From positions 1 through 23,330 of IMG/VR virus record IMGVR_UViG_3300036770_007058: a DNA stretch of 23,330 nt; one strand, given 5' to 3'. The stretch is from a virus. The translations under genes and the position numbers were made by a program. Below, one piece after another: positions 11,795-22,697 of this stretch. Position 1 is the stretch's first letter, and each line of letters starts with the position of its first letter. The notes under the pieces were generated by a model. It had not been told where the DNA came from. It did not search any database and saw nothing but the letters and a program-made list of their open reading frames with translations.

Positions 11795-12319
11795 ATGTCA
11801 CTTGCCACCAACAAAAATCTCGAAGAACTGTTTGATCTGCCGGCGGGACGCGAAAACGACAATGACAGCGACCCCGATGTAGACGCCGAAACCCACAACG
11901 ATATCCAAACCAATCTACCGGTGCTGCCCGATACTCTGGTGGCCCTGGACAAGATTGAAGCGGCGTTGCCACAGGTACGCGGTCTTGAAGCCAGTGATGA
12001 GGAAATGGATGACCTTGCTGGCCGGGCCAAAGAGAGCTTTGATGATCTCATGAACCTGGGCATGCAAGTGGACAGCCGATATGCATCGGAAATCTTCGCT
12101 GTGGCCAGCACCATGCTGGGCCATGCCATCACAGCCAAGACCGCCAAGATGAACAAAAAGCTCAAGATGATCCAACTGCAACTGCAAAAAGCCAAGATGG
12201 ATCAAACCAATCAGGATGCTCCGCAACCAGCTGACGGCACAGGTCGGGTGCTGAATCGCAACGACCTCCTGCGCACTATTTTGTCCGCGGAACGCGAAAA
12301 ACCTGCGCAAGATAAATAG
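11795..12319 (+). CDS. gp16: Probable small terminase subunit, T4 gp16-like
   Basis: The product is 174 aa (T4 gp16 is 164). The N-terminal 60 residues are acidic and probably flexible (GRENDNDSDPDVDAETHND). The central part is two helices: EEMDDLAGRAKESFDDLMNLGMQV, then RYASEIFAVASTMLGHAI...KLKMIQLQLQKAK (about 92-130). This parallels gp16's 'YEVVR.N......L..A........PR.YEVFA.LM......' coiled-coil pair, which forms the ring that loads DNA onto the packaging motor. The C-terminal RVLNRNDLLRTIL resembles the short conserved tail of gp16 proteins. No Shine-Dalgarno is seen before the ATG. The large terminase gp17, adjacent in T4, does not follow here. Assignment rests on pattern and size, so it could instead be another small head-assembly protein. 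Confidence 0.6.
   Translation: MSLATNKNLEELFDLPAGRENDNDSDPDVDAETHNDIQTNLPVLPDTLVALDKIEAALPQVRGLEASDEEMDDLAGRAKESFDDLMNLGMQVDSRYASEIFAVASTMLGHAITAKTAKMNKKLKMIQLQLQKAKMDQTNQDAPQPADGTGRVLNRNDLLRTILSAEREKPAQDK
12311..12318 (+). promoter_or_regulatory. Late promoter motif GATAAATA overlapping a stop codon
   Basis: GATAAATA shares bases with the TAG stop (12317-12319) of the preceding gene. It lies 18 bases before the next ATG, with a GGGA stretch between. It would start the long run of abutting genes from 12337 to about 18015. Confidence 0.6.
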
Positions 12320-12336
12320 AATACGGGAAATCAAAA

Positions 12337-12942
12337 ATGAAAACTTTTGCTCAATACCTTACAGAAAGCCGCAAATTACATCAATATCGCATCAAGATCG
12401 TGGGTGATGTACCGGCTGGCTTCATGAGATCACTCCGGGATCAACTCAAGAAGTTTGATCCCCAAAGCATCAGCGAACCCAAGACCACACCGGTCATGGC
12501 TCAACCTCGTGATTTCCCAAACTATCCCAATCAAAGCGTGACCATGATGGATGCGGCTTTCCGTTATCCAGCCACACCGCCCCAAGTGCAGCAGATAGTC
12601 GAGCTCTTGGGACTGGCAGCCGATCGCCTCAGCATGTCACAGCTGGAGTACGAACAAGGGCTTGACAAAGAGATGCTGGGCATCGCCGAGCAGAACAAAG
12701 ATCTCTTGGTCAATCCTGAATATCCCAAAGACACAGCCGAACAGAAGCAGCTCAAGAAAGACTATGCCGCACCTCCCATGGAGAAAAGCGTGGTCAAGAA
12801 CAGCGCAGACGCGGCAGTGTTTACCGTGGCAGGAGGCAAAACACCTCCCGCCGAGACCACGAATGATTTGCCCATGGGAGTACGCAGTCCCATGACCAAC
12901 GTCAAACGTCCGCCCATGCCGGCCACAGGCTTCAGGAAATAA
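12337..12942 (+). CDS. Putative capsid-targeted protein with MKTFAQYLTE N-terminus
   Basis: The product is 201 aa. The first ten residues, MKTFAQYLTE followed by S, closely resemble the T4 capsid-targeting sequence of the internal proteins IPI-IPIII (MKTYQEFIAE followed by A), including the (L/I)-x-E cleavage site of the gp21 prohead protease. In T4 this tag sends proteins into the prohead core and is then removed. The rest is unrecognised. YRIKIVGDVPAGFMRSLRDQLKKFDP (about 17-42) could be a small alpha/beta domain, RYPATPPQVQQIVELLGLAADRL is helical, and the C-terminus is proline-rich. The ATG follows a late promoter motif. Role as an internal or core protein is inferred from the tag and position. 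Confidence 0.82.
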   Translation: MKTFAQYLTESRKLHQYRIKIVGDVPAGFMRSLRDQLKKFDPQSISEPKTTPVMAQPRDFPNYPNQSVTMMDAAFRYPATPPQVQQIVELLGLAADRLSMSQLEYEQGLDKEMLGIAEQNKDLLVNPEYPKDTAEQKQLKKDYAAPPMEKSVVKNSADAAVFTVAGGKTPPAETTNDLPMGVRSPMTNVKRPPMPATGFRK

Positions 12943-12953
12943 GGATCACCACA

Positions 12954-14978
12954 ATGAACAACATGTACGACATACTCGCACGTATCAATCTGCTGGAAGG
13001 CAAAGGCAGCAAGCCTGACTTCCTGGACCTTGACAAGGACGGCAATCGCAAAGAAAGCATGAAGGATGCAGCCAAAGAAGTAGATGAGTCTACCGGCGAC
13101 TACTCGGCCAAGAAGGCTCGCGCCGGCAAGGACATTGGCAAGCCTGGCAAGCAGTTTGCCAAGATCGCAAAGTCCGCTGGTGAACGTTATGGATCCCAAG
13201 AGCGCGGCGAAAAGGTCGCAGGTGCTGTGTTGGCTAAACTACGTGCCAAGAAAGAAAGCGTCGAAGAAGCCAACGACGGCAACTTGGCCAACAACGCCAA
13301 ACCCTACGACAAAGTCACACGTGGTGATGTCATCGCTGGACGCCTGGGCAAAGACGCCATGGGCGGCAAGCGCAAGGTCAAAGAAAGCCCGCAGTTGATC
13401 AAAGTGCTGGAAGGCCATGGCCGCCGCGCACAAGTGATCTTGGACCGCGAGTTCAACGAATATCAAGTGCGTTTCATGGCCGAAGGTCAAGAAGCGGCAC
13501 AGCCAGAATTTACAGAAGTGGCTTCAGATGCCCTGAACTGGGCTCGCCAGTGGGTGGCAGAAGGCAAAGTCACACACACTCCCACTGGTTTGATCCATCG
13601 TGGTTCCTATGGCAGTGAATACCAAGGCGACGATGAAGAAGACGATGACAAGCCACGTGTCAAACAGCCTGCGGGTGGCAAACGCGCCCCTGGTCGTCCC
13701 ACTGGTACCGGTCGCAAACTAGGCGCCCGCGGACCTTCGGGCAAGAGCAAGCTCATGACCCGCGAGGCCGGTCCCGCTGATGAGCCAGTCGAGCCCGACA
13801 TGGATGCCGACGACAAGCGTTTTGATGACATGGATGAATCTGCGCTGCAAGCGCACATTGGCAAGGAAAAATACGGTGCCAAGGGCATGGAAGAGCTGCA
13901 AAAGGCCGGACGTGAAGGAGCCAGCGAGAAAAAGATGGCTGCGATCCGCGCAAAGCATGACAAGATGGACGAGTGCGCCGATGATCCCGAGTACGGACAA
14001 GAAGGCGACATGGCCAAGGATGACCTGCGCAGCATCGCAATGGCTGCCAAAGAACTGCACAACATCTTGGGTGACGATCAAGATCTCCCGGAGTGGGTGC
14101 AGAGCAAGATTACCAAGGCCCTGGACTACATCAACAGCAGCAATCAATACATGAAGCGCGAACGTGATGACATGGACGATGCCGAACAGCCCATAGCCGA
14201 AAAGGCTGTGAGCGTGAAACAACGGCGTGCTGCTGGAATCGCACACGCTGCCCAAAAGGGCGAGATTCCCAAGAGCGAGCTGCGTGGCGCTTCTAAAGAG
14301 ATGGCCAAGATGGCCAAGGGCGAACTGCACAAGTTTGCGGCCACCAAAGAAAAGGATCTGCCCATGAAGAAAGGCAAGAAGTCCGAAGCCAAGGAAGAAG
14401 TGGAAGAGACAACCACAGCAGGTTCGGTGGCCGTGGCCGACGACGCACCCAAGGCCAAGGGCAAGAAGGGCATGCAGTTTGGCAAAGGCATCTATGAGGC
14501 TCGATTGGAAGAAGCCTATCGAGCTGAGTTGGATCGCACACTGAACGAAAGCGTCAGCATCAACATGAGCATCAGCAGCGAAGGACAGAAAAGTCTCACA
14601 GCCTATGCCACTGACGAAGATGCCGAAGCCCTAGGCGCACTGCTGAAAATGGCAGGCCTGATGCAAGACGGTGAAGGCGGCGCCAAGAGTGGGGTTTGCC
14701 CGCAATGCGGCGCACAACACGGCATGCACGAAGCCGGTTGCGGCGGTGGCGAAATGGTGGAAGAAGGCGATCTTGCCAACAGCCCCGAACCCGAATATGC
14801 CGACACCAACACCATGGTCAACACACTGTCGGGTGGACTCAATGGTCGCAAGACCACGGGCCAGACCACTGTGCCTGTGCTGCAACGCGATCCCGCACGC
14901 CAAGGCAATCCTGCTGTGGCTGAATCGCAAGAACAGCGCCTGTGGAACCTTTATAAAAACTATTCTGGACGCGCCTGA
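12954..14978 (+). CDS. Large multi-domain acidic/lysine-rich protein, putative prohead core component
   Basis: The 674-aa product looks assembled from modules seen in other aquatic phage proteins. Near residues 13-15 is LLE, then G (possible prohead-protease site). D25-L-D-K-D-G (about 25-30) resembles an EF-hand loop in the familiar 'KPD(F/Y)LDLDKDG' context. About 355-400 is DDLRSIAMAAKELHNILG...EWVQSKITKALDYI, a helical module. About 415-472 is DUF3008-like (VSVKQRRAAGIAHAAQKGE...ASKEMAKMAKGELHKFAATKEKDLPMKK). Near 582 is CPQCG, a possible half zinc site. Composition is rich in K, E, D and A with basic and acidic blocks, as in core/scaffold proteins. Internal (L/I)xE sites (IAE, LEE, LNE) could be cleaved. 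TAAGGA lies 9 bases before the ATG. The stop overlaps the next start (TGATG). Confidence 0.85.
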   Translation: MNNMYDILARINLLEGKGSKPDFLDLDKDGNRKESMKDAAKEVDESTGDYSAKKARAGKDIGKPGKQFAKIAKSAGERYGSQERGEKVAGAVLAKLRAKKESVEEANDGNLANNAKPYDKVTRGDVIAGRLGKDAMGGKRKVKESPQLIKVLEGHGRRAQVILDREFNEYQVRFMAEGQEAAQPEFTEVASDALNWARQWVAEGKVTHTPTGLIHRGSYGSEYQGDDEEDDDKPRVKQPAGGKRAPGRPTGTGRKLGARGPSGKSKLMTREAGPADEPVEPDMDADDKRFDDMDESALQAHIGKEKYGAKGMEELQKAGREGASEKKMAAIRAKHDKMDECADDPEYGQEGDMAKDDLRSIAMAAKELHNILGDDQDLPEWVQSKITKALDYINSSNQYMKRERDDMDDAEQPIAEKAVSVKQRRAAGIAHAAQKGEIPKSELRGASKEMAKMAKGELHKFAATKEKDLPMKKGKKSEAKEEVEETTTAGSVAVADDAPKAKGKKGMQFGKGIYEARLEEAYRAELDRTLNESVSINMSISSEGQKSLTAYATDEDAEALGALLKMAGLMQDGEGGAKSGVCPQCGAQHGMHEAGCGGGEMVEEGDLANSPEPEYADTNTMVNTLSGGLNGRKTTGQTTVPVLQRDPARQGNPAVAESQEQRLWNLYKNYSGRA

Positions 14979-16552
14979 TGAAAAGCCTCAAACAATACAT
15001 CACCGAAGCTGAAACATGGGTATCTGAACCAGCGCAGGGCGACAACTTCGCCATCAACATCCGCGAGGAGTGTTTGATCGAGACGCATGTAGTGGACGTC
15101 ATGGAAGATGGCGTGGTGCTGCATGCGGATCAGCGCATGCTGGAACTGCTGGAACAGTATGGTTACAGCATGGAAGAAATCCGCCGGTATGGTGCCGTGG
15201 GCAACAATCGTGCCATGGGCTATACCAACGAAGATGAGCACCCTGATCAAGCCATGAATCGTAGAGCAGCAGGTGATCAAGCACAACGCAAGATCGACAT
15301 GCCTGCTGCACAACGCAAGGCGTCAGGCGACGCCAACTGGCGAGTTTCGTTGACTGATCTATATCAAGCACGTCAGCGCCACGACAGCGAGCATCTGCGA
15401 CGCCTGCGTGAGCTGGCTGGCATGCACATGGAAGATGCCAACAGCAATGATCCACTCATGGCCAAGAGCTTTGATGATGCCGCGGTTCCGGCCTTGGAGG
15501 AAAGCAGCGACAGTTATGATGCTGTGGCCAGCGCCATCACAAATCGCATCATGACACAACACTATGATGTGCTGGCCAAGCATGGTCCGGCTCGCGTGAT
15601 ACAGGCCATTGATGATGTGGCAGAATTCGTGGGCGATGTGGACGAGATCGGCACCAGCGATGTCAGTGGTTGGACCAAGGAAGTCATCAAGGACCTTGAC
15701 TCGGGACGCTACGATCATGTCAAGGAAGAAGTCACCACAGACGAGCCCATGCCCCAGCAGGGCAGCGTGGCCAGCGAACCACTGGATCCCTTGAACCCTC
15801 CGCACGAGGTCGACGAGGCCCAGGACGACGATGACGAAGATCGTCCCGAAGACCCCGACAAAGACAAAATGCCTCACATCGTGATGCAGGCCCGCAAGGC
15901 CGTGGACGTGGATGGTAAGTTCCCCATAATGTTCCGAGATGGCAGCAAGACGCGCATACCCTTGCCGGTGTTGCAGCAGTTCCTGGCCATGTACAATGTC
16001 ATGAAAAGCAATGACAAAGAAGTTTTCCAGAACATGGTCAGCGGCAACGCCAAAGACTTTGTCTCAGTGGTCATGGGCACCCAGGTCAACGAGGCCGCAG
16101 ATGAGTCCACGGATCAAGATCCCTTGGTCACTGTGCATGACAAAGACGGCCTGCACACGCATGCCCATCTCAGCACAGTGAACGGTATTTTCAACATTGA
16201 CGTTGACGCCAAGGATGTGCTGGCAGGACCAGTGAACATTCACAGTGGTTGGGAAGATCGGCGCCCCTTGCTGATCAAGCTCAGCCAGCACCACAAAGGC
16301 AGCCAAGTGGACGAGGCCGAATACCAAGGTCGCGAAGTGCCCCTGGGCAAGCCCATGGCCGGCGATGTCAAGAAAAAGAAAGTCTATGTGCGCAAGCCCA
16401 ATGGCAATGTGGTCAAGGTAGAATTTGGCGATCCCAACATGCGCATCAAGAAGCACATACCGGGGCGGCGCAAGAATTTCCGCGCCCGACACAACTGCGA
16501 CAATCCCGGACCGCGCTGGAAAGCCCGGTACTGGAGTTGCCGCGCCTGGTAA
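14978..16552 (+). CDS. Putative capsid-targeted protein with conserved FGDPNM/RARHNCDNPGP C-terminal domain
   Basis: The product is 524 aa. It begins MKSLKQYITE then A, another close match to the T4 capsid-targeting sequence with an ITE cleavage site. Residues about 180-250 form a helical module (DAVASAITNRIMTQHYDVLAKHGP...FVGDVDEIG..DVSGWTKEVI). About 268-300 is an acidic linker. The C-terminal 75 residues (EYQGREVPLGKPM...VEFGDPNMRIKKHIPGRRKNFRARHNC, then DNPGPRWKARYWSC) are a domain I recognise as recurrent in T4-like aquatic phages, attached to various head-region proteins including prohead protease or core proteins. Two cysteines and histidines there may bind metal. I see no protease motif I can name. 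The one-base overlap with the previous gene suggests coupling. Confidence 0.85.
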   Translation: MKSLKQYITEAETWVSEPAQGDNFAINIREECLIETHVVDVMEDGVVLHADQRMLELLEQYGYSMEEIRRYGAVGNNRAMGYTNEDEHPDQAMNRRAAGDQAQRKIDMPAAQRKASGDANWRVSLTDLYQARQRHDSEHLRRLRELAGMHMEDANSNDPLMAKSFDDAAVPALEESSDSYDAVASAITNRIMTQHYDVLAKHGPARVIQAIDDVAEFVGDVDEIGTSDVSGWTKEVIKDLDSGRYDHVKEEVTTDEPMPQQGSVASEPLDPLNPPHEVDEAQDDDDEDRPEDPDKDKMPHIVMQARKAVDVDGKFPIMFRDGSKTRIPLPVLQQFLAMYNVMKSNDKEVFQNMVSGNAKDFVSVVMGTQVNEAADESTDQDPLVTVHDKDGLHTHAHLSTVNGIFNIDVDAKDVLAGPVNIHSGWEDRRPLLIKLSQHHKGSQVDEAEYQGREVPLGKPMAGDVKKKKVYVRKPNGNVVKVEFGDPNMRIKKHIPGRRKNFRARHNCDNPGPRWKARYWSCRAW

Positions 16553-16567
16553 TCAAGGAAAACAAAG

Positions 16568-16858
16568 ATGTCCGCACCCCAAGCAAACGCATACACATCA
16601 GTTTCGGCACAGGCCTGGCTCACAGACAAATGCCGTATCAGCACTGGCAACACTGCCGTGACCTATCAGGTCAACATGCAGTACGCCACTCCTGACACAG
16701 GCAATCTCTATGGCAACGCTCAACCATCTGTGCCGGCCAACAGTTCACTGGATGTGTGGGTGGGAGTTGGTAACCAACTCACCATCACAGGCGCCAATTA
16801 CACTGCCTTGGAAGTGGGCACTAAATCATCGGGCCAATACGCTGTAAGAGGTGGTTGA
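16568..16858 (+). CDS. Small beta-rich phage protein, function unknown
   Basis: This 96-aa protein lacks the capsid-targeting-like N-terminus of its neighbours. It reads as alternating strands and turns (NAYTSVSAQAWLTD, TAVTYQVNMQYATP, ANSSLDVWVGVGNQLTITGANYTALEVG), rich in T, S, N, G and V. This fits a compact beta-sandwich such as a decoration or fibre-accessory protein (inference). AAGGA lies about 9 bases before the ATG. Its stop is separated by one base from the next ATG. I do not recognise a named family. Confidence 0.75.
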   Translation: MSAPQANAYTSVSAQAWLTDKCRISTGNTAVTYQVNMQYATPDTGNLYGNAQPSVPANSSLDVWVGVGNQLTITGANYTALEVGTKSSGQYAVRGG

Positions 16859-16859
16859 G

Positions 16860-17243
16860 ATGCGGGCACGTGAATTTGTGCCGCAGAACCTGGGCGAAGC
16901 TGTCACGGGACGCATATCCAAACGTCATCGCTATCCCACACGCGGTCTCAATTTGTTCAAAGATGGTGAGCAGTGGAACACTGATTACACGCTGAATCGT
17001 GTGATGATGGCCGCGGCCTGCACCGATGGAACCTTCGTTCCTGATGTCAACACCAAGTCTTGGATCGGCAAAGGCAAAAGTGCGCACCCCTACACACAGC
17101 AAGAACAAGACATGCTCAAGATGGCCTACAAGGCCGCGGGCGCCAAATGGACCGATCTCAATGGTGGTGACATGGACAGCGAAGAGATGCCGGATACCAA
17201 CAACAAGAGCCCGGTGGTGGCATTCAAAGGATATCCGCGATGA
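16860..17243 (+). CDS. MRAREF...GYPR family protein, copy 1
   Basis: The 127-aa product begins MRAREFVPQN and ends SPVVAFKGYPR, ends shared with the next gene, while the middle differs. The middle has KRHRYPTRGLNLF, DYTLNRVMMAAACTDG and YTQQEQDMLKMAYKAAGAKW, the last a helix near residues 80-98. The N-terminus resembles capsid-targeting sequences but has VPQ where the cleavable (L/I)xE would be. I know these small proteins as frequent, unnamed genes in T4-like aquatic phages. The ATG at 16860 has AGAGG 9 bases upstream and is preferred over an in-frame GTG at 16851. Its last codons include AAAGGATAT, which also serves as ribosome binding site for the next gene. Confidence 0.82.
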   Translation: MRAREFVPQNLGEAVTGRISKRHRYPTRGLNLFKDGEQWNTDYTLNRVMMAAACTDGTFVPDVNTKSWIGKGKSAHPYTQQEQDMLKMAYKAAGAKWTDLNGGDMDSEEMPDTNNKSPVVAFKGYPR

Positions 17244-17644
17244 GAGCTCGTGAATTCATCACCGAACAGGCTGACTTGCCCGACGAAACCAAGGATCCCA
17301 TGCGCTGGACCTATGTGTTGCCGGGACTCAGTGCTGCCGATCCTTACAAAAACTATCGCATGGGCGTGGCCGTGGCCCGAGCCAGAGCCGATTACGCCAG
17401 CAACCTCAATCCCCAGAACGATGCGGTAGATCCTTACAAGCCAGACTGGAGCGCCGAGACTGCTTTTGGTGAGCACGGTGTGGTGGTAGGCATGGGACCG
17501 GGTGTGGCACAAATCATTGACCACGCCTTGAAGATGACCAAAACTCCCGGTGGCAAGCGCCTGGTCAGCAGCGGCGACAGCGCAGAACCCAAATCCACCA
17601 ACGATCGCAGTCCCATCAAGCCTTTCCGGGGATATCCAAGATGA
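17240..17644 (+). CDS. MRAREF...GYPR family protein, copy 2
   Basis: The 134-aa product begins MRAREFITE then Q, a capsid-targeting-like N-terminus with a plausible ITE cleavage site. It ends NDRSPIKPFRGYPR, like its upstream neighbour. The body, DPMRWTYVLPGLSAADPYKNYRMGVAVARAR followed by WSAETAFGEHGVVVGMG and ALKMTKTPGGKRLVSS, matches a small protein I recognise from T4-like aquatic phage genomes. No function is known to me. It overlaps copy 1 by four bases (ATGA) and the next gene by four bases (ATGA), so all three are probably translated from one message. Location in the capsid interior is inferred from the tag. Confidence 0.84.
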   Translation: MRAREFITEQADLPDETKDPMRWTYVLPGLSAADPYKNYRMGVAVARARADYASNLNPQNDAVDPYKPDWSAETAFGEHGVVVGMGPGVAQIIDHALKMTKTPGGKRLVSSGDSAEPKSTNDRSPIKPFRGYPR

Positions 17645-18015
17645 GAGCACAAGAAATAATGCCACAGGGTCAGCCCGTGACCATCAGCATACCCATAAAC
17701 ATCACCATTCCCGCGGGTGGCGGGATGCCTACCATAGCAGCCCCAGCCACAGAGGAGCTGCCACCGCAGCCCGTGATGGTGCCACCGCTGCAGGCCGATC
17801 TAGAACTGAAAAAACAGCAGGGCGGCAAAGCCAGCAAGGTCATAAATCAAATCGTCAGTGACGATGGTGCCTACAGTCCCGATGATGGCGAAAAGCCTGA
17901 CGTCCCGGACAGTGTGACCGAACCCGAACCGGCGGTGTTGGGCGTGTATGATCTAAACGAGCATTACGATCAATTGGTCAGCATATATGCTCGTACTCTC
18001 ATGGAACGAACCTAA
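17641..18015 (+). CDS. Proline-rich small protein with MRAQE N-terminus
   Basis: The 124-aa product starts MRAQEIMPQ, a degenerate version of the MRAREF N-terminus of the two preceding proteins, and lacks the (L/I)xE site. A hydrophobic valine/isoleucine/proline stretch follows (QPVTISIPINITIPAGGG, about 11-28), then a proline-rich linker (ATEELPPQPVMVPPL). A lysine-containing helix (KKQQGGKASKVINQIV), an acidic stretch and a final helix (YDLNEHYDQLVSIYARTLME) complete it. It lacks the GYPR ending. Start overlaps the previous stop (ATGA), with GGGGA 9 bases upstream. Function unrecognised; the gene context suggests a virion or head-associated protein. Confidence 0.78.
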   Translation: MRAQEIMPQGQPVTISIPINITIPAGGGMPTIAAPATEELPPQPVMVPPLQADLELKKQQGGKASKVINQIVSDDGAYSPDDGEKPDVPDSVTEPEPAVLGVYDLNEHYDQLVSIYARTLMERT

Positions 18016-18030
18016 TCAGACTCAAATGAC

Positions 18031-18894
18031 ATGCCAGCCAACGCACAGACTGCCATACAAGAATTCTTTACCAGCAGAAACAACGGTATCGTCAGTGCTG
18101 ACTACGTTGGCCAACAGGGTCGCCTTTGGTACGATCCAGTAACCAACACCATTAGAGTCTATGATGGCACTGTGGGTGGCAGAAGTGTCACCTCAGGAGG
18201 TGGGGGCAATGCCAGCCTCACAGTGGGACAAAGCAACATTTCTGGCGGCAACCTCAGCAATGTTGTCAGCGATGTCAGCACCATTTATTTTGATACCGAC
18301 GCTGGTCTCACGGTCAATGACCTAGGCGATGACAGCGTGGTCATCAGTTTTGGCAGCACCTTCAAGTACTGGGAAGTCACTGGACAGCCTACCCTGGAAG
18401 CCCAGGGCGAGGACACTGTAGAATTCATCGCTGGCAACAACATTGCCATCACCACCAGCAACACCAGCACGCCGCAAAGCATAGCATTTGCTGTGACTGG
18501 CACTGTGCCCACGGCCAACACCGTGACCAACAGTGCGCAACCCAACATCACCAGTGTGGGCACACTGACAGCCCTCACTGTGTCGGGCAACACGGCCCTG
18601 GGAGACCTGGCCAATGTCAGCATCCTGGGCGGCAACGCAGGTTATGTGATAACCACTGATGGTGCCGGTGTCCTGACCTGGCAACCGCGCAACAACATCG
18701 GTGTGAGTTATTTGGGCAACCAGATCACGCCCGATGTCAGCAGCCTAAACTTCACCGGCGGCGGGGTGCTGGCCACTGCGGTGGGCAACTCTGTGACTAT
18801 CTCTGTGCCGGCTACCTATGCTATCTTTGATGGCGGTGGACCCGAACAAGATTATTCAGGCGGCCCGGCCTTTGATTGCGGAGGGGTGTTGTAA
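18031..18894 (+). CDS. Tail fibre/appendage protein, repeat-containing
   Basis: The product is 287 aa. Residues 8-48 (AIQEFFTSRNN...QGRLWYDPVTNTIRVYDGTVGG) form an N-terminal module typical of phage appendage proteins. The middle holds QPNITSVGTLTALTVSGN (near 170-187), the same repeat that recurs in the next gene. The C-terminus, YAIFDGGGPEQDYSGGPAFDCGG, is an ending I recognise from fibre-type proteins of T4-like cyanophages. Composition is rich in G, N, T, S and V with few charges, as in extended beta fibres. No Shine-Dalgarno precedes the ATG at 18031, 15 bases after the previous stop. The stop shares one base with the next ATG (TAATG). It is likely a structural appendage; the binding target is unknown. 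Confidence 0.78.
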   Translation: MPANAQTAIQEFFTSRNNGIVSADYVGQQGRLWYDPVTNTIRVYDGTVGGRSVTSGGGGNASLTVGQSNISGGNLSNVVSDVSTIYFDTDAGLTVNDLGDDSVVISFGSTFKYWEVTGQPTLEAQGEDTVEFIAGNNIAITTSNTSTPQSIAFAVTGTVPTANTVTNSAQPNITSVGTLTALTVSGNTALGDLANVSILGGNAGYVITTDGAGVLTWQPRNNIGVSYLGNQITPDVSSLNFTGGGVLATAVGNSVTISVPATYAIFDGGGPEQDYSGGPAFDCGGVL

Positions 18895-21800
18895 TGCCTT
18901 TTATACAGTTCCAATTCCGTAGGGGCACCGGCGCTGAGTGGCAAGCAGCCAATACCGTGCTGGCTCCAGGTGAACTGGGGCTAGACACCACCACTCAAAG
19001 ATTCAAGATCGGTGACGGCAGCACGGCCTGGAACGACCTAGTTTACAGTCCGGTAGCGGACGGGCCCGAAGGCTCCATACAGTTCAATCAAAGCAATGGC
19101 ATAGCTGGCAGCAGCAACTTAACCTATACCGATGGTACCACGCTGAGTGTGGCAGGTAACTTGTTGCCACAGGCCAATGTCACATACAGCCTGGGCAACG
19201 CCAATCTGCGATGGTCCAATTTGTTTCTTGCCGGCAACACCATTGACCTAGGTGGTAGCCAGATCAAAAGTGACACCGAGGGTGCTATCGTTTTGGTACC
19301 GCCGGTTACAGTGGCCAACCCCAATCCCACGGCTCTTGTAATCAACACCACGGGCAGTATCGTGCCTGTGGAGACCGTGGATGGTGTGCCCAATGCCAAC
19401 GCAGTGACCGAAGCGGTCAGCAACACCGACAGCACTTTTGGCAATGTGTTTGTGACCGGCAATCTCACTGCCAATCAAGCCACGGTGTCCATTGGCAACA
19501 TATTGATCAATGGCGATACCATCAGCAGCGTTGACGACACCATATACATTGACCCAGCCAGCCCCGGCAACACTGGATTGGTGATCATCGAGGGCAATCT
19601 GCAGGTCACGGGCAATGTGACCTACATCAGTTCAAACGTAGTCACCATAAACGACAAGTTCATCAATCTGGCCAACAATGCTGCCAACAGCTCTGAAGCC
19701 AACGGTGGCGGCATTGGTGTGGGACCAGTGGGCTCTGAATACGCTAAATTGTCTTTTGACAATGCCAGCACGTCGTGGACCACGGACATTCCCTTGTCGG
19801 TCACAGGCAATGTCACCGCCAACTATTTCATTGGCAACGGCAGCCAGCTCACAGGCATTGATACCAGCCAGATACAGAATGGCACCAGCAATGTCAAGAC
19901 CCTGCAGAACAGCAATGTCGCGATTTCGGTAGCAGGTACCAGCAATGTCCTGGTGGCCAGCTCCACAGACATCGTGATCAAGGGCAATGTTTTGCCCGAT
20001 GCCAACGTAACCTACAATCTGGGCAGTGCCACACAGGCCTGGCACAGCCTATACATTTCCGGCAACACGCTGTACATCGCCGATGAAAGCATGGCGGTCA
20101 ACAGCGCCACCGGCGTTTGGAGCTTCACCAGCAATGGCGGTGAAATCACGCTGGGCGTTGACTCGGTCTTTGCCAACTCAGTATCGGCCAATTACATACT
20201 TGGCAATGGCGCTCTGCTCAGTGGCATCGTTACCTCTGCGGGCAATGTCAATTTTGCCAACATTGCCAACCTAGCCTACAACATCAGTGGGTCTAATGTC
20301 AGCGGAGCAGTGGCCAATGCCACCTATGCCGATACAGCCAACATAGCCACAGTGGCATATTCGGTATCGGGCAGCAACGTATCCGGTACAGTAGCCAATG
20401 CCACCTATGCCGTGTCGGCGGGCTCAGCTGATTCAGCTACCACAGCAGGCACTGTGACCACAAATGCACAGCCCAACATCACCAGTGTAGGCACATTGAC
20501 ATCACTGTCGGTGTCGGGCAACGTGTCGGGCGATTACATTCTTGGCAACGGTAGCCAGCTCACTGGATTGCCTGAGCAATACGGCAACGCAAATGTTGCC
20601 GCATATCTGCCCACCTACACAGGTAACCTAGCAGCCAACAACATCACCATCACTGGTGTATACACTGGTAATGCAGCGGGCCTAAGCGCAGTGCCCGGCG
20701 CTAATGTCTCGGGCACGGTGGCCAATGCCACCTATGCTGATACAGCCAATATCGCATACAGCGTGAGTGGCAGCAATGTATCGGGCACTGTTGCCAATGC
20801 CACCTATGCCGTGTCTGCTGGATCAGCAGATTCGGCCACTACCGCCGGCACTGTGACCACAAATGCACAGCCCAACATCACCAGTGTGGGCACACTGACA
20901 TCCTTGACTGTGACCGGCAATGTTTCCGGCAATTATATCCTGGGCAATGGTAGTCAGCTCACTGGTTTGCCCGAGCAATACGGCAATGCCAATGTTGCTG
21001 CATATCTGCCCACATATACCGGCAATCTAGCGGCCAACAACATCACCATTACCGGTGTGTACACAGGCAATGCAGCCGCATTGACCAACTTGCCCGGTGC
21101 CAATGTCTCAGGCTCAGTGGCCAACGCCACCAACGCCGACACGGCCAACGTGGCCTACAGCGTGAGTGGCAGCAATGTTTCCGGCACGGTGGCCAACGCC
21201 ACATTCGCCACCACGGCTGATTCAGCTACCACAGCAGGCACTGTGACCACAAATGCACAGCCCAATATAACCAGCGTGGGCTCGCTGTCGTCCTTGACTG
21301 TGTCCGGCAATACCACAGCGGCCAATGTGGCTGCAGGTAACATAGCATTGACAGGCGCTGTGGCGGCTGCCAGCGGCAGTTTCAGTGGCAACGTTGCCAT
21401 GGGCGGATTTGAGATCACGAATCTGGCATCACCCACCACCGCCAACAGTGCAGCTACCAAACAGTATGTTGATGCCGTGGCCGAAGGCCTCCATATACAT
21501 GCCTCATGCGATGCGGCCACACCGGCAAACTTGGCCACCATTACCGGTGGCACTGTGACCTATGACAATGGCAGTGACGGTGTCGGAGCCACATTGACCA
21601 CCACAGGCACCTACGGCAACATTGATGGTGTAGACATCACCACAGTGGGCAGCAGAATCCTGGTCAAGAACGAAGCCAATACCACACACAACGGTATCTA
21701 CGTTTACAGCAATGCCACGGTACTGACCCGCGCCACCGACACCGACACTGCTGCGGAAATGGCTGGTGGTGACTTTACTTTCGTCACCGGTGGAACCTTG

Positions 21801-22697
21801 TATGACAACACTGGATGGGTGCAGACCGAACCAGTGCTGGTGATTGGTACCGATCCCGTGATCTATGTGCAATTTTCTGGTGCTGGCACCTACACTGCCG
21901 GCACTGGTCTAACGCTTACCGGCACAGAATTCAGTGTCAACACCACACAGACACAGATCACCGAAGTAGGTAATCTAGTGGCGCTGACTGTGACTGGTAA
22001 CATCGCTGCCAACTACATTTCGGCCACACAAGAGATCCTGGCCGATAGATTTGAAGGCAACGGTTGGCAACTCACCAGCATCAACGCTGCCAACATTTCT
22101 GGCTCAGTGGCCAACGCCAACTTTGCTGTGTACAGCGACACCGTGGCAGCCAGCAGCCAACCCAACATCACGTCGGTGGGCAATCTAGTTGACCTCACAG
22201 TCACAGGCAACGTGTCTGCCAACTATTTCTTGGGCAACGGCAGCCAGCTCACAGGCATCGTCACAGGCAACGCATTTGGCAACATAGTGGTGGCCAACGC
22301 CAACACTGTCACTGCTGATTCCGCCAGCGCCAATCTCACGCTGCGGGCCGGCAATGCCATGAGCATCGATACTGATCCCGCAAACAACACCGTTACCATA
22401 GCCCAGATCAATTTCAGCCAGAACTTTGGCTTCGTGACCGGCAACGTGGATCAAGAAGACGACCTAGGCCTGGTCACACTCACTGCAAACCAAGCCGGCG
22501 ACCTCGGCACAGTTACCGTGGACGGGTATGTGACCCCAGGCGTGTTTATACTGCCCACGTTCACTGTGGCCACGCTGCCCAACCCTGCCCCGGCTGCGCA
22601 GGTCATTTATGTCAGCGATGAGTCAGGCGGTGCAGTCATGGCCTTCAGCGATGGGGTCAACTGGCGCCGCTGCACAGATCGGGCCATTGTAACATAA
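18894..22697 (+). CDS. Long tail fibre protein with internal repeats
   Basis: The product is 1267 aa. Residues 1-50 (FQFRRGTGAEWQAAN...LAPGELGLDT....FKIGDGSTAWNDL) match the N-terminal module of major tropism determinant-type and many other tail fibres. Residues about 85-850 are beta-rich repeats built from motifs such as (V/L)TGNVSANYFLGNGSQLTGI and QPNITSVGTLTSLTVSGN, including two exact-length 133-aa tandem units. About 855-1010 is a recognised fibre domain (KQYVDAVAEGLHIHAS...RILVKNEANTTHNGIYV...GAGTYTAGTGLTLTG). The end (TVATLPNPAPAAQVIYVSD...MAFSDGVNWRRCTDRAIV) is a common phage fibre C-terminus. It probably contacts the host surface. The ATG at 18894 is used rather than an upstream alternative because GGAGG lies 8 bases before it and the module begins there. 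Confidence 0.88.
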   Translation: MPFIQFQFRRGTGAEWQAANTVLAPGELGLDTTTQRFKIGDGSTAWNDLVYSPVADGPEGSIQFNQSNGIAGSSNLTYTDGTTLSVAGNLLPQANVTYSLGNANLRWSNLFLAGNTIDLGGSQIKSDTEGAIVLVPPVTVANPNPTALVINTTGSIVPVETVDGVPNANAVTEAVSNTDSTFGNVFVTGNLTANQATVSIGNILINGDTISSVDDTIYIDPASPGNTGLVIIEGNLQVTGNVTYISSNVVTINDKFINLANNAANSSEANGGGIGVGPVGSEYAKLSFDNASTSWTTDIPLSVTGNVTANYFIGNGSQLTGIDTSQIQNGTSNVKTLQNSNVAISVAGTSNVLVASSTDIVIKGNVLPDANVTYNLGSATQAWHSLYISGNTLYIADESMAVNSATGVWSFTSNGGEITLGVDSVFANSVSANYILGNGALLSGIVTSAGNVNFANIANLAYNISGSNVSGAVANATYADTANIATVAYSVSGSNVSGTVANATYAVSAGSADSATTAGTVTTNAQPNITSVGTLTSLSVSGNVSGDYILGNGSQLTGLPEQYGNANVAAYLPTYTGNLAANNITITGVYTGNAAGLSAVPGANVSGTVANATYADTANIAYSVSGSNVSGTVANATYAVSAGSADSATTAGTVTTNAQPNITSVGTLTSLTVTGNVSGNYILGNGSQLTGLPEQYGNANVAAYLPTYTGNLAANNITITGVYTGNAAALTNLPGANVSGSVANATNADTANVAYSVSGSNVSGTVANATFATTADSATTAGTVTTNAQPNITSVGSLSSLTVSGNTTAANVAAGNIALTGAVAAASGSFSGNVAMGGFEITNLASPTTANSAATKQYVDAVAEGLHIHASCDAATPANLATITGGTVTYDNGSDGVGATLTTTGTYGNIDGVDITTVGSRILVKNEANTTHNGIYVYSNATVLTRATDTDTAAEMAGGDFTFVTGGTLYDNTGWVQTEPVLVIGTDPVIYVQFSGAGTYTAGTGLTLTGTEFSVNTTQTQITEVGNLVALTVTGNIAANYISATQEILADRFEGNGWQLTSINAANISGSVANANFAVYSDTVAASSQPNITSVGNLVDLTVTGNVSANYFLGNGSQLTGIVTGNAFGNIVVANANTVTADSASANLTLRAGNAMSIDTDPANNTVTIAQINFSQNFGFVTGNVDQEDDLGLVTLTANQAGDLGTVTVDGYVTPGVFILPTFTVATLPNPAPAAQVIYVSDESGGAVMAFSDGVNWRRCTDRAIVT
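20361..21158 (+). repeat. Two tandem 399-bp coding repeats in the fibre gene (third partial copy follows)
   Basis: Units start at 20361 and 20760, each exactly 399 bases (133 codons) from a serine codon in SVSGSNVSGTVANATYAVSAG. A third, diverged and shortened copy starts at 21159 and loses similarity after about 21315. Proteins of the two units are nearly the same, while many third codon positions differ, so the duplication is not recent. Units contain NAQPNITSVGTLTSL, ILGNGSQLTGLPEQYGNAN and YTGNLAANNITITGVYTGNAA. Confidence 0.9.

Follow-up and report, generated by a model that had tools for sequence, protein, structure and literature searches.

Three proteins encoded in a fragment of a T4-like myovirus, and probably a fourth, seem to start with capsid-targeting sequences of the phage T4 type, that is, N-terminal tags that dock on the prohead, are cut off, and can be moved from one cargo protein to another. 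We give this reading a probability of roughly 80%. The fragment is the IMG/VR record IMGVR_UViG_3300036770_007058, which was analysed over its whole length of 23,330 bases (in the following called the window), and the genes, named by their start positions, are 12337, 14978, 17240, and, as the probable case, 12954. Packaging of the tagged proteins is well supported by analogy, and for the window phage we infer docking, cleavage, and injection as well.

In T4, positions 4 and 7 of the targeting sequence direct targeting, while positions 8 and 10 direct processing, and an Asp at position 10 allows targeting without cutting (PMC9026906). The initial annotation of the window took MKTYQEFIAE as the start of all three T4 internal proteins; this is exact for ipII and ipIII, whereas IPI is merely similar (PMC9026906). 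From scans of IMG/VR two tag classes were defined, class A, MKTFxxF(L/I)xE, and class B, MRAxEFIxE, and both are used by the window and its relatives. All six N-termini pointed out in the initial annotation are present, and the features of the block are as follows.

12311-12318, + strand: box resembling a T4 late promoter, GATAAATA, 19-26 nucleotides upstream of gene 12337; a consensus match only
12337-12366, + strand: class A tag MKTFAQYLTE (followed by S) of gene 12337; exact T4-type pattern
12367-12942, + strand: body of gene 12337, a predicted ferredoxin-like alpha/beta domain with a low-confidence tail; predicted template modelling score (pTM) 0.49
12954-12998, + strand: possible longer propeptide MNNMYDILARINLLE (followed by G) of gene 12954; weaker than those of 12337, 14978, and 17240
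12999-14978, + strand: body of gene 12954, a mosaic of small modules including a KPDFLDLDKDG segment, DUF3008, and a TTTAGSVA segment
14978-15007, + strand: class A tag MKSLKQYITE (followed by A) of gene 14978; exact T4-type pattern
15008-16552, + strand: body of gene 14978, with a C-terminal RARHNCDNPGP...YWSCRAW module (phrog_7595)
16860-16886, + strand: class B tag that has lost its Glu, MRAREFVPQ, of gene 16860
16887-17243, + strand: body of gene 16860, a paralog of 17240
17240-17266, + strand: class B tag MRAREFITE (followed by Q) of gene 17240; nine-residue variant of the T4-type pattern
17267-17644, + strand: body of gene 17240, from the family most often found behind class B tags (61 of 116 tagged proteins)
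17641-17667, + strand: degenerate class B start MRAQEIMPQ of gene 17641, supported by an ATGA overlap with the preceding stop

Tags were counted with a preset pattern at the gene start, M-x(1-4)-[FLYIMAVS]xx[FY][LIV]xE, using genes from our own gene caller, with positions inside the proteins themselves serving as null. In the window there are three matches among 23 genes (12337, 14978, and 17240), where 0.01 is expected (Poisson P ~5e-7). Since the window was picked because tags were seen in it, the independent test lies in its relatives, and these show 3-8 matches per genome against 0.2-1.0 expected. When T4 was used as a control the pattern recovered ipII, ipIII, and the small gene 61.1, and a codon-pattern version gave one further match, inside gene 43. 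The class A pattern has 21 matches in 20 records when read forward and none reversed, and class B has 64 forward matches against two reversed. It could be argued that such starts occur by chance, an LxE near the start being common in acidic phage proteins, and the loose LxE alone is indeed only mildly enriched and uninformative in PA5oct; it was rejected as a tag because it is too common. The full pattern, however, clearly exceeds expectation in every close relative and hardly ever occurs in the reversed controls, which makes chance a very improbable explanation. It is refuted for 12337, 14978, and 17240, whose tags are real and well above chance, but may hold for 12954.

The initial annotation assigned a shared (L/I)-x-E tag to four proteins. 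Three of them fit the T4-type pattern, while 12954 has only the terminal LxE: it falls outside the preset pattern, lacks T4-type residues at positions 4 and 7, and ends in LLE before G. Most 12954 orthologs display a variable N-terminus ending in LxE before G, A, or S at shifting positions, to be read against a baseline of 12% of genes and with orthologs that are not independent of each other. As judged from these sequences, the 12954 N-terminus is probably a capsid-targeting sequence of a different form. The two remaining starts, MRAREFVPQ of 16860 and MRAQEIMPQ of 17641, are, as had been suggested, related MRA starts without the Glu, and carry Gln at the position of the cleavage Glu.

The tags are found on a wide range of proteins. 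MRAxEFIxE starts occur in at least 120 stretches of IMG/VR and the reversed pattern in none; 80 of the 95 matches read have an in-frame stop no more than 25 codons upstream, and the 116 tagged proteins obtained when genome matches were added fall into 31 phmmer clusters. Scanning for MKTFxxF(L/I/M/F)xE gave 84 proteins in 47 phmmer clusters, 80 of them at gene starts by the same distance. Among the cargo families are GNAT, HD_4, HNH, DPBB, GH19, DUF6267, DUF6321, and DUF5661, with ParB_N below threshold, and by eye only, other bodies look like ADP-ribosyltransferases or kinases. In several cases homologous bodies differ in their tag between phages, MKTF in the one and MRA in the other, as in the pairs L341/L188 (E 1.5e-34) and L361/L183 (E 2e-28), and the GNAT proteins L337/L204 make up a further pair with opposite classes; the tags thus appear to be exchangeable and equivalent signals. 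This swapping is the strongest sequence evidence for such an equivalence, in which each phage lineage would use its own form.

The shared starts could also be hitch-hiking DNA without function, spread by recombination within a late promoter, ribosome site, and first codons that the genes have in common. Tagged genes do cluster, and TAAATA precedes 44 of 83 (53%) class A tagged genes against 188 of 813 (23%) other genes on the same contigs (p 2.6e-8). However, the DNA encoding the tags is almost always different, being distinct between proteins in 89/90 and 79/81 cases, with both synonymous choice and the residues at the x positions free. This codon diversity points to constraint at the protein level. 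No promoter enrichment is seen for class B, for which the late-promoter box was rejected as a mark, and homologous bodies carry different tags, so that hitch-hiking has very little probability. The TAAATA excess upstream of class A genes is in line with late expression.

The tags were also compared with published virion proteomes. For the cyanophage S-CREM2 a table of 52 virion proteins is available (PMC10665884), and the tagged starts of ORF6 (S-adenosylmethionine (SAM) hydrolase; ORF, open reading frame), ORF13, ORF14 (kinase), ORF136, and ORF154 (cytidylyltransferase) all belong to proteins in the table. A pattern starting with M[KR] matches 5/52 virion proteins and 0/140 others (p 1.3e-3), although one of the five, ORF17, looks like chance and ORF136 is missed. 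With the preset pattern the counts are 4/52 and 2/140 (p 0.047), and 4/28 when only virion proteins without a T4-type structural role are considered (p 7.5e-3); these p-values are nominal since four patterns were tried. A virion-detected cytidylyltransferase of S-SZBM1 starts with MRFRQFIIE and a virion-detected NMNAT of S-SCSM1 with MKSFLQFLKE (PMC9146016, PMC9602691), and S-SCSM1 has a second tagged gene without virion annotation. The S-CREM2 protein ORF12 (OR473000, 7704-10313, - strand), a nuclease annotated as Cas9 and present in virions, has RFASFMAE followed by A at residues 18-25; either a tag-like site follows a longer N-terminus here, or the start is misplaced.

The tags also go together with the T4-type head assembly machinery. 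Relatives of the window encode the gp21 prohead protease and gp23. The protease (PF03420) is found in 12/13 records of at least 140 kb (both class B sets) and in 4/15 class A records, most of which are fragments; G039, one of the long gp21-negative class A records, was found by a 19-residue chance ORF. The capsid proteins of the relatives and of PA5oct carry (Y/H/F)LxE directly before the mature-like region, a likely propeptide end that was assigned by inspection because the aligner put gaps there. In G016 (C1:245734-246102) a tagged gene, MKSTEFITEWKK, lies between the portal and core genes in the head operon, and in PA5oct a protein starting MKINDIITE adjoins the portal gene and was detected in virions by mass spectrometry. 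Small tagged proteins of L206 (11641-11838, - strand), L216, and G016 (C1:96870), starting MRAQEFIKENASVGATSSGSVATVAMPVGG, resemble the stretch KYLKENASSGSTVSGNIATL at the propeptide end of the relatives' capsid proteins, and are possibly mimics of the capsid N-arm. The suggestion in the initial annotation that the starts are a transferable targeting tag is strengthened by their conservation in relatives, their occurrence at the starts of dozens of genes with unrelated bodies, and their swapping between homologous ones, and further by the co-occurrence with gp21 and matching likely capsid-protein cleavage sites and by the tagged enzymes found by mass spectrometry in cyanophage virions. A restriction of the tag to the head-gene region, which had been raised as a check, is not seen; tagged genes lie at many sites in related genomes.

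In the proposed mechanism the short N-terminal part would form an amphipathic helix that docks on the prohead core during assembly, through its hydrophobic residues 4 and 7 (class A) or 3 and 6 (class B), and the attached protein would thereby be carried into the head. A gp21-type protease would then cut after the Glu and release the mature protein beside the DNA. The products of 16860 and 17641, which lack the Glu, may be packaged uncut, or their tags may be decaying. In this reading the cargo is exchangeable and clade-specific, and if T4 is a guide, part of it may be injected into the host and act there.

Several observations weigh against this reading. The S-CREM2 test is small, with four patterns tried, and the tagged ORFs 191 and 192 of S-SZBM1 are not among the 30 virion proteins detected. 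The virion annotation of PA5oct, which was tried as a test of the tags, gave no enrichment of LxE starts (13/93 proteins annotated by mass spectrometry against 37/257 others). The preset pattern has no match in HTVC008M and one in the 160 kb examined of Atu_ph07, which is not above expectation, and there is no gp21 gene within the 23-kb window, itself a fragment. Finally, A or S replaces E10 in one subclade of 12337 homologs, and the PA5oct homolog, EST35_0202, starts with MKSFRDYYDA, where position 10 is A, yet is annotated as a virion protein by electrospray ionisation tandem mass spectrometry (ESI-MS/MS).

In that subclade, as in PA5oct, E10 is lost but residues 4 and 7 are retained, which matches the division in T4 genetics between targeting and processing positions. 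This loss would also be expected if the tags were uncleaved structural docking helices that do target the head, with the LxE incidental, as would the Gln in 16860 and 17641 and the targeting seen in T4 with Asp at position 10. On the other hand, the Glu is kept in most tags that were found independently of it (orthologs of 12337, 14978, 16860, and 17240), the same kind of site is present in the capsid proteins of the relatives, and the Glu of class A is often followed by A or S, as at the site in T4 gp23 and ipII/ipIII. We therefore consider uncleaved helices unlikely, though less so than chance or hitch-hiking, and retain cleavable targeting sequences as the preferred reading.

Among 23 homologs of 12337, K2, Y7, and L8 of the tag are kept in at least 90%. 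In the predicted structure the tag is a short helix (residues 4-10) of lower confidence, apart from a fold that starts around residue 15; a fold search with the model gave no PDB match at E<0.001, only weak matches of ribosomal-S6/ferredoxin-like type, and no function was assigned. The annotated start of the homolog in Atu_ph07 (MF403008, 84393-85148, - strand) is probably too late, and an upstream start gives MKTLQDYLTE.

Orthologs of 14978 start with MKTLKDYLTE, MKSLRDYITE, or MRTLKEYISE, with YLTD in one. The phrog_7595 module is present in phage C48C1 in a 105-residue protein starting MKKFKQYIDE. In the same phage a cytidylyltransferase is probably annotated too short, an upstream start giving MIKNFSQYLLE. 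In S-SZBM1 (OL473597, 122311-125375) the tagged SSZBM1_191/192 adjoin a 707-residue protein that begins with a DUF3008-like segment, a possible cultured-phage counterpart of the 12954/14978 block.

When it comes to class B, M1, R2, A3, E5, F6, and E9 are invariant in the tag alignment of 17240, an invariance that is partly built in, as the tag pattern itself served to find most rows. In the closest homologs of 16860 the Glu is kept (FIKE, FLAE, FITE, FVTE). The proteins of 16860 and 17240 are paralogous and have a common end, ...SP(V/I)xxF(K/R)GYPR, and a segment is common to 12954 and the orthologs of 14978 (E ~1e-19); the claim that the bodies are mutually unrelated thus fails for the first pair and is otherwise only partly correct. 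The model of the 17240 body is poor (predicted local distance difference test (pLDDT) 74, pTM 0.39). No match to the 17240 family was found in cultured phages, no homologs of 17641 were found in the relatives, and no class B-like pattern in Atu_ph07, PA5oct, HTVC008M, or C48C1. Pfam searches with the bodies of 12337, 16860, 17240, and 17641 gave no match, and the family matches of the window bodies include none annotated as IPI, IPII, IPIII, or Alt, with which no direct comparison was made.

The window also encodes a neck protein, a DexA-like exonuclease, a deoxynucleoside monophosphate kinase, a tail sheath protein, two tube proteins, and a gp4-like head-completion protein. No match was found by megablast of the window against the phage collection, and the cultured relatives best covered by the sheath protein are Atu_ph07, Phosso, and PA5oct (40-43% identity); in addition, 50 related contigs were collected. 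A long fibre-like protein at 18894-22697 contains the repeat units SGxVANATYADTAN / GNVSGNYILGNGSQLTG. The tRNA-Thr called by ARAGORN at 915-994 lies within the coding frame 652-1791 and is probably a false positive.

The mechanism is that of the T4 internal proteins and is already known, and ip genes have been found by their signal sequence in T-even phages (PMC12373910). The window tags share with IPII/IPIII (MKTYQEFIAE) the length of 10, K2, aromatic or hydrophobic residues at 4 and 7, L/I at 8, and E at 10, as well as unrelated bodies and a gp21-type protease, here in the relatives. They differ in that the class A tags are found among neck and tail-tube genes, where a large mosaic protein bears one of them, and in the second, nine-residue class and the many more kinds of cargo across phages. 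Gene 61.1 of T4 (NC_000866, 18966-19130; 54 residues, hypothetical), noticed via L271, starts with MKTFKEFIKE followed by D and has GTTSGAVV and a basic tail; its sequence suggests a small internal protein of T4 that has gone unrecognised. S-CREM2, S-SZBM1, and S-SCSM1 have the same kind of tag on a virion-found cytidylyltransferase/NMNAT, SAM hydrolase, and kinase, whereas the accessible parts of these papers do not mention the tag and leave contamination open; homology of this cargo to the window proteins is not established. The polyvalent proteins (Iyer et al., 2017; PMC5512222) overlap with the tagged cargo in GNAT, ParB-like, and possibly ADP-ribosyltransferase-like domains, but were predicted to be packaged from context, while a defined N-terminal tag is proposed here; none of the window proteins is itself a polyvalent protein. 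Head proteins of SPN3US/phiKZ likewise have short propeptides cut after Glu, with a diverged protease and site motif (PMC9026906). Three things appear to be new within the open-access literature searched: the nine-residue MRA class, the broad occurrence of the tags together with their exchangeability, and their connection with unexplained enzymes in cyanophage particles.

Proteins of L152 (2992, + strand) and L351 (4299, + strand) have a tag followed by a segment, MRAVEFIAEIDRRGFLGALGAGAMAAAG, that is hydrophobic or resembles a twin-arginine translocation (Tat) signal; if the tag were cut off, an export signal might be exposed, and this would point to the periplasm as the place of delivery.

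In large T4-like phages many virion proteins lack a known function, and whether the enzymes in cyanophage particles are cargo or contaminants is left open in the papers that describe them. A readable loading tag would allow this to be tested gene by gene and candidate injected effectors to be listed from metagenomes, and would also provide new short tags with which foreign proteins could be brought into phage heads. It seems somewhat more probable than the opposite that the two interchangeable N-terminal codes, MKxFxxF/Y-L/I-x-E and MRAxEF-I/L/V-x-E, are a general head-loading signal, used by T4-like phages other than the T-evens to deliver large, mixed sets of effectors to the host. If this is true, the effectors so loaded would include acetyltransferases, HD hydrolases, nucleases, cell-wall enzymes, and kinases, and one could read from the sequence of any such genome which effectors it packages.

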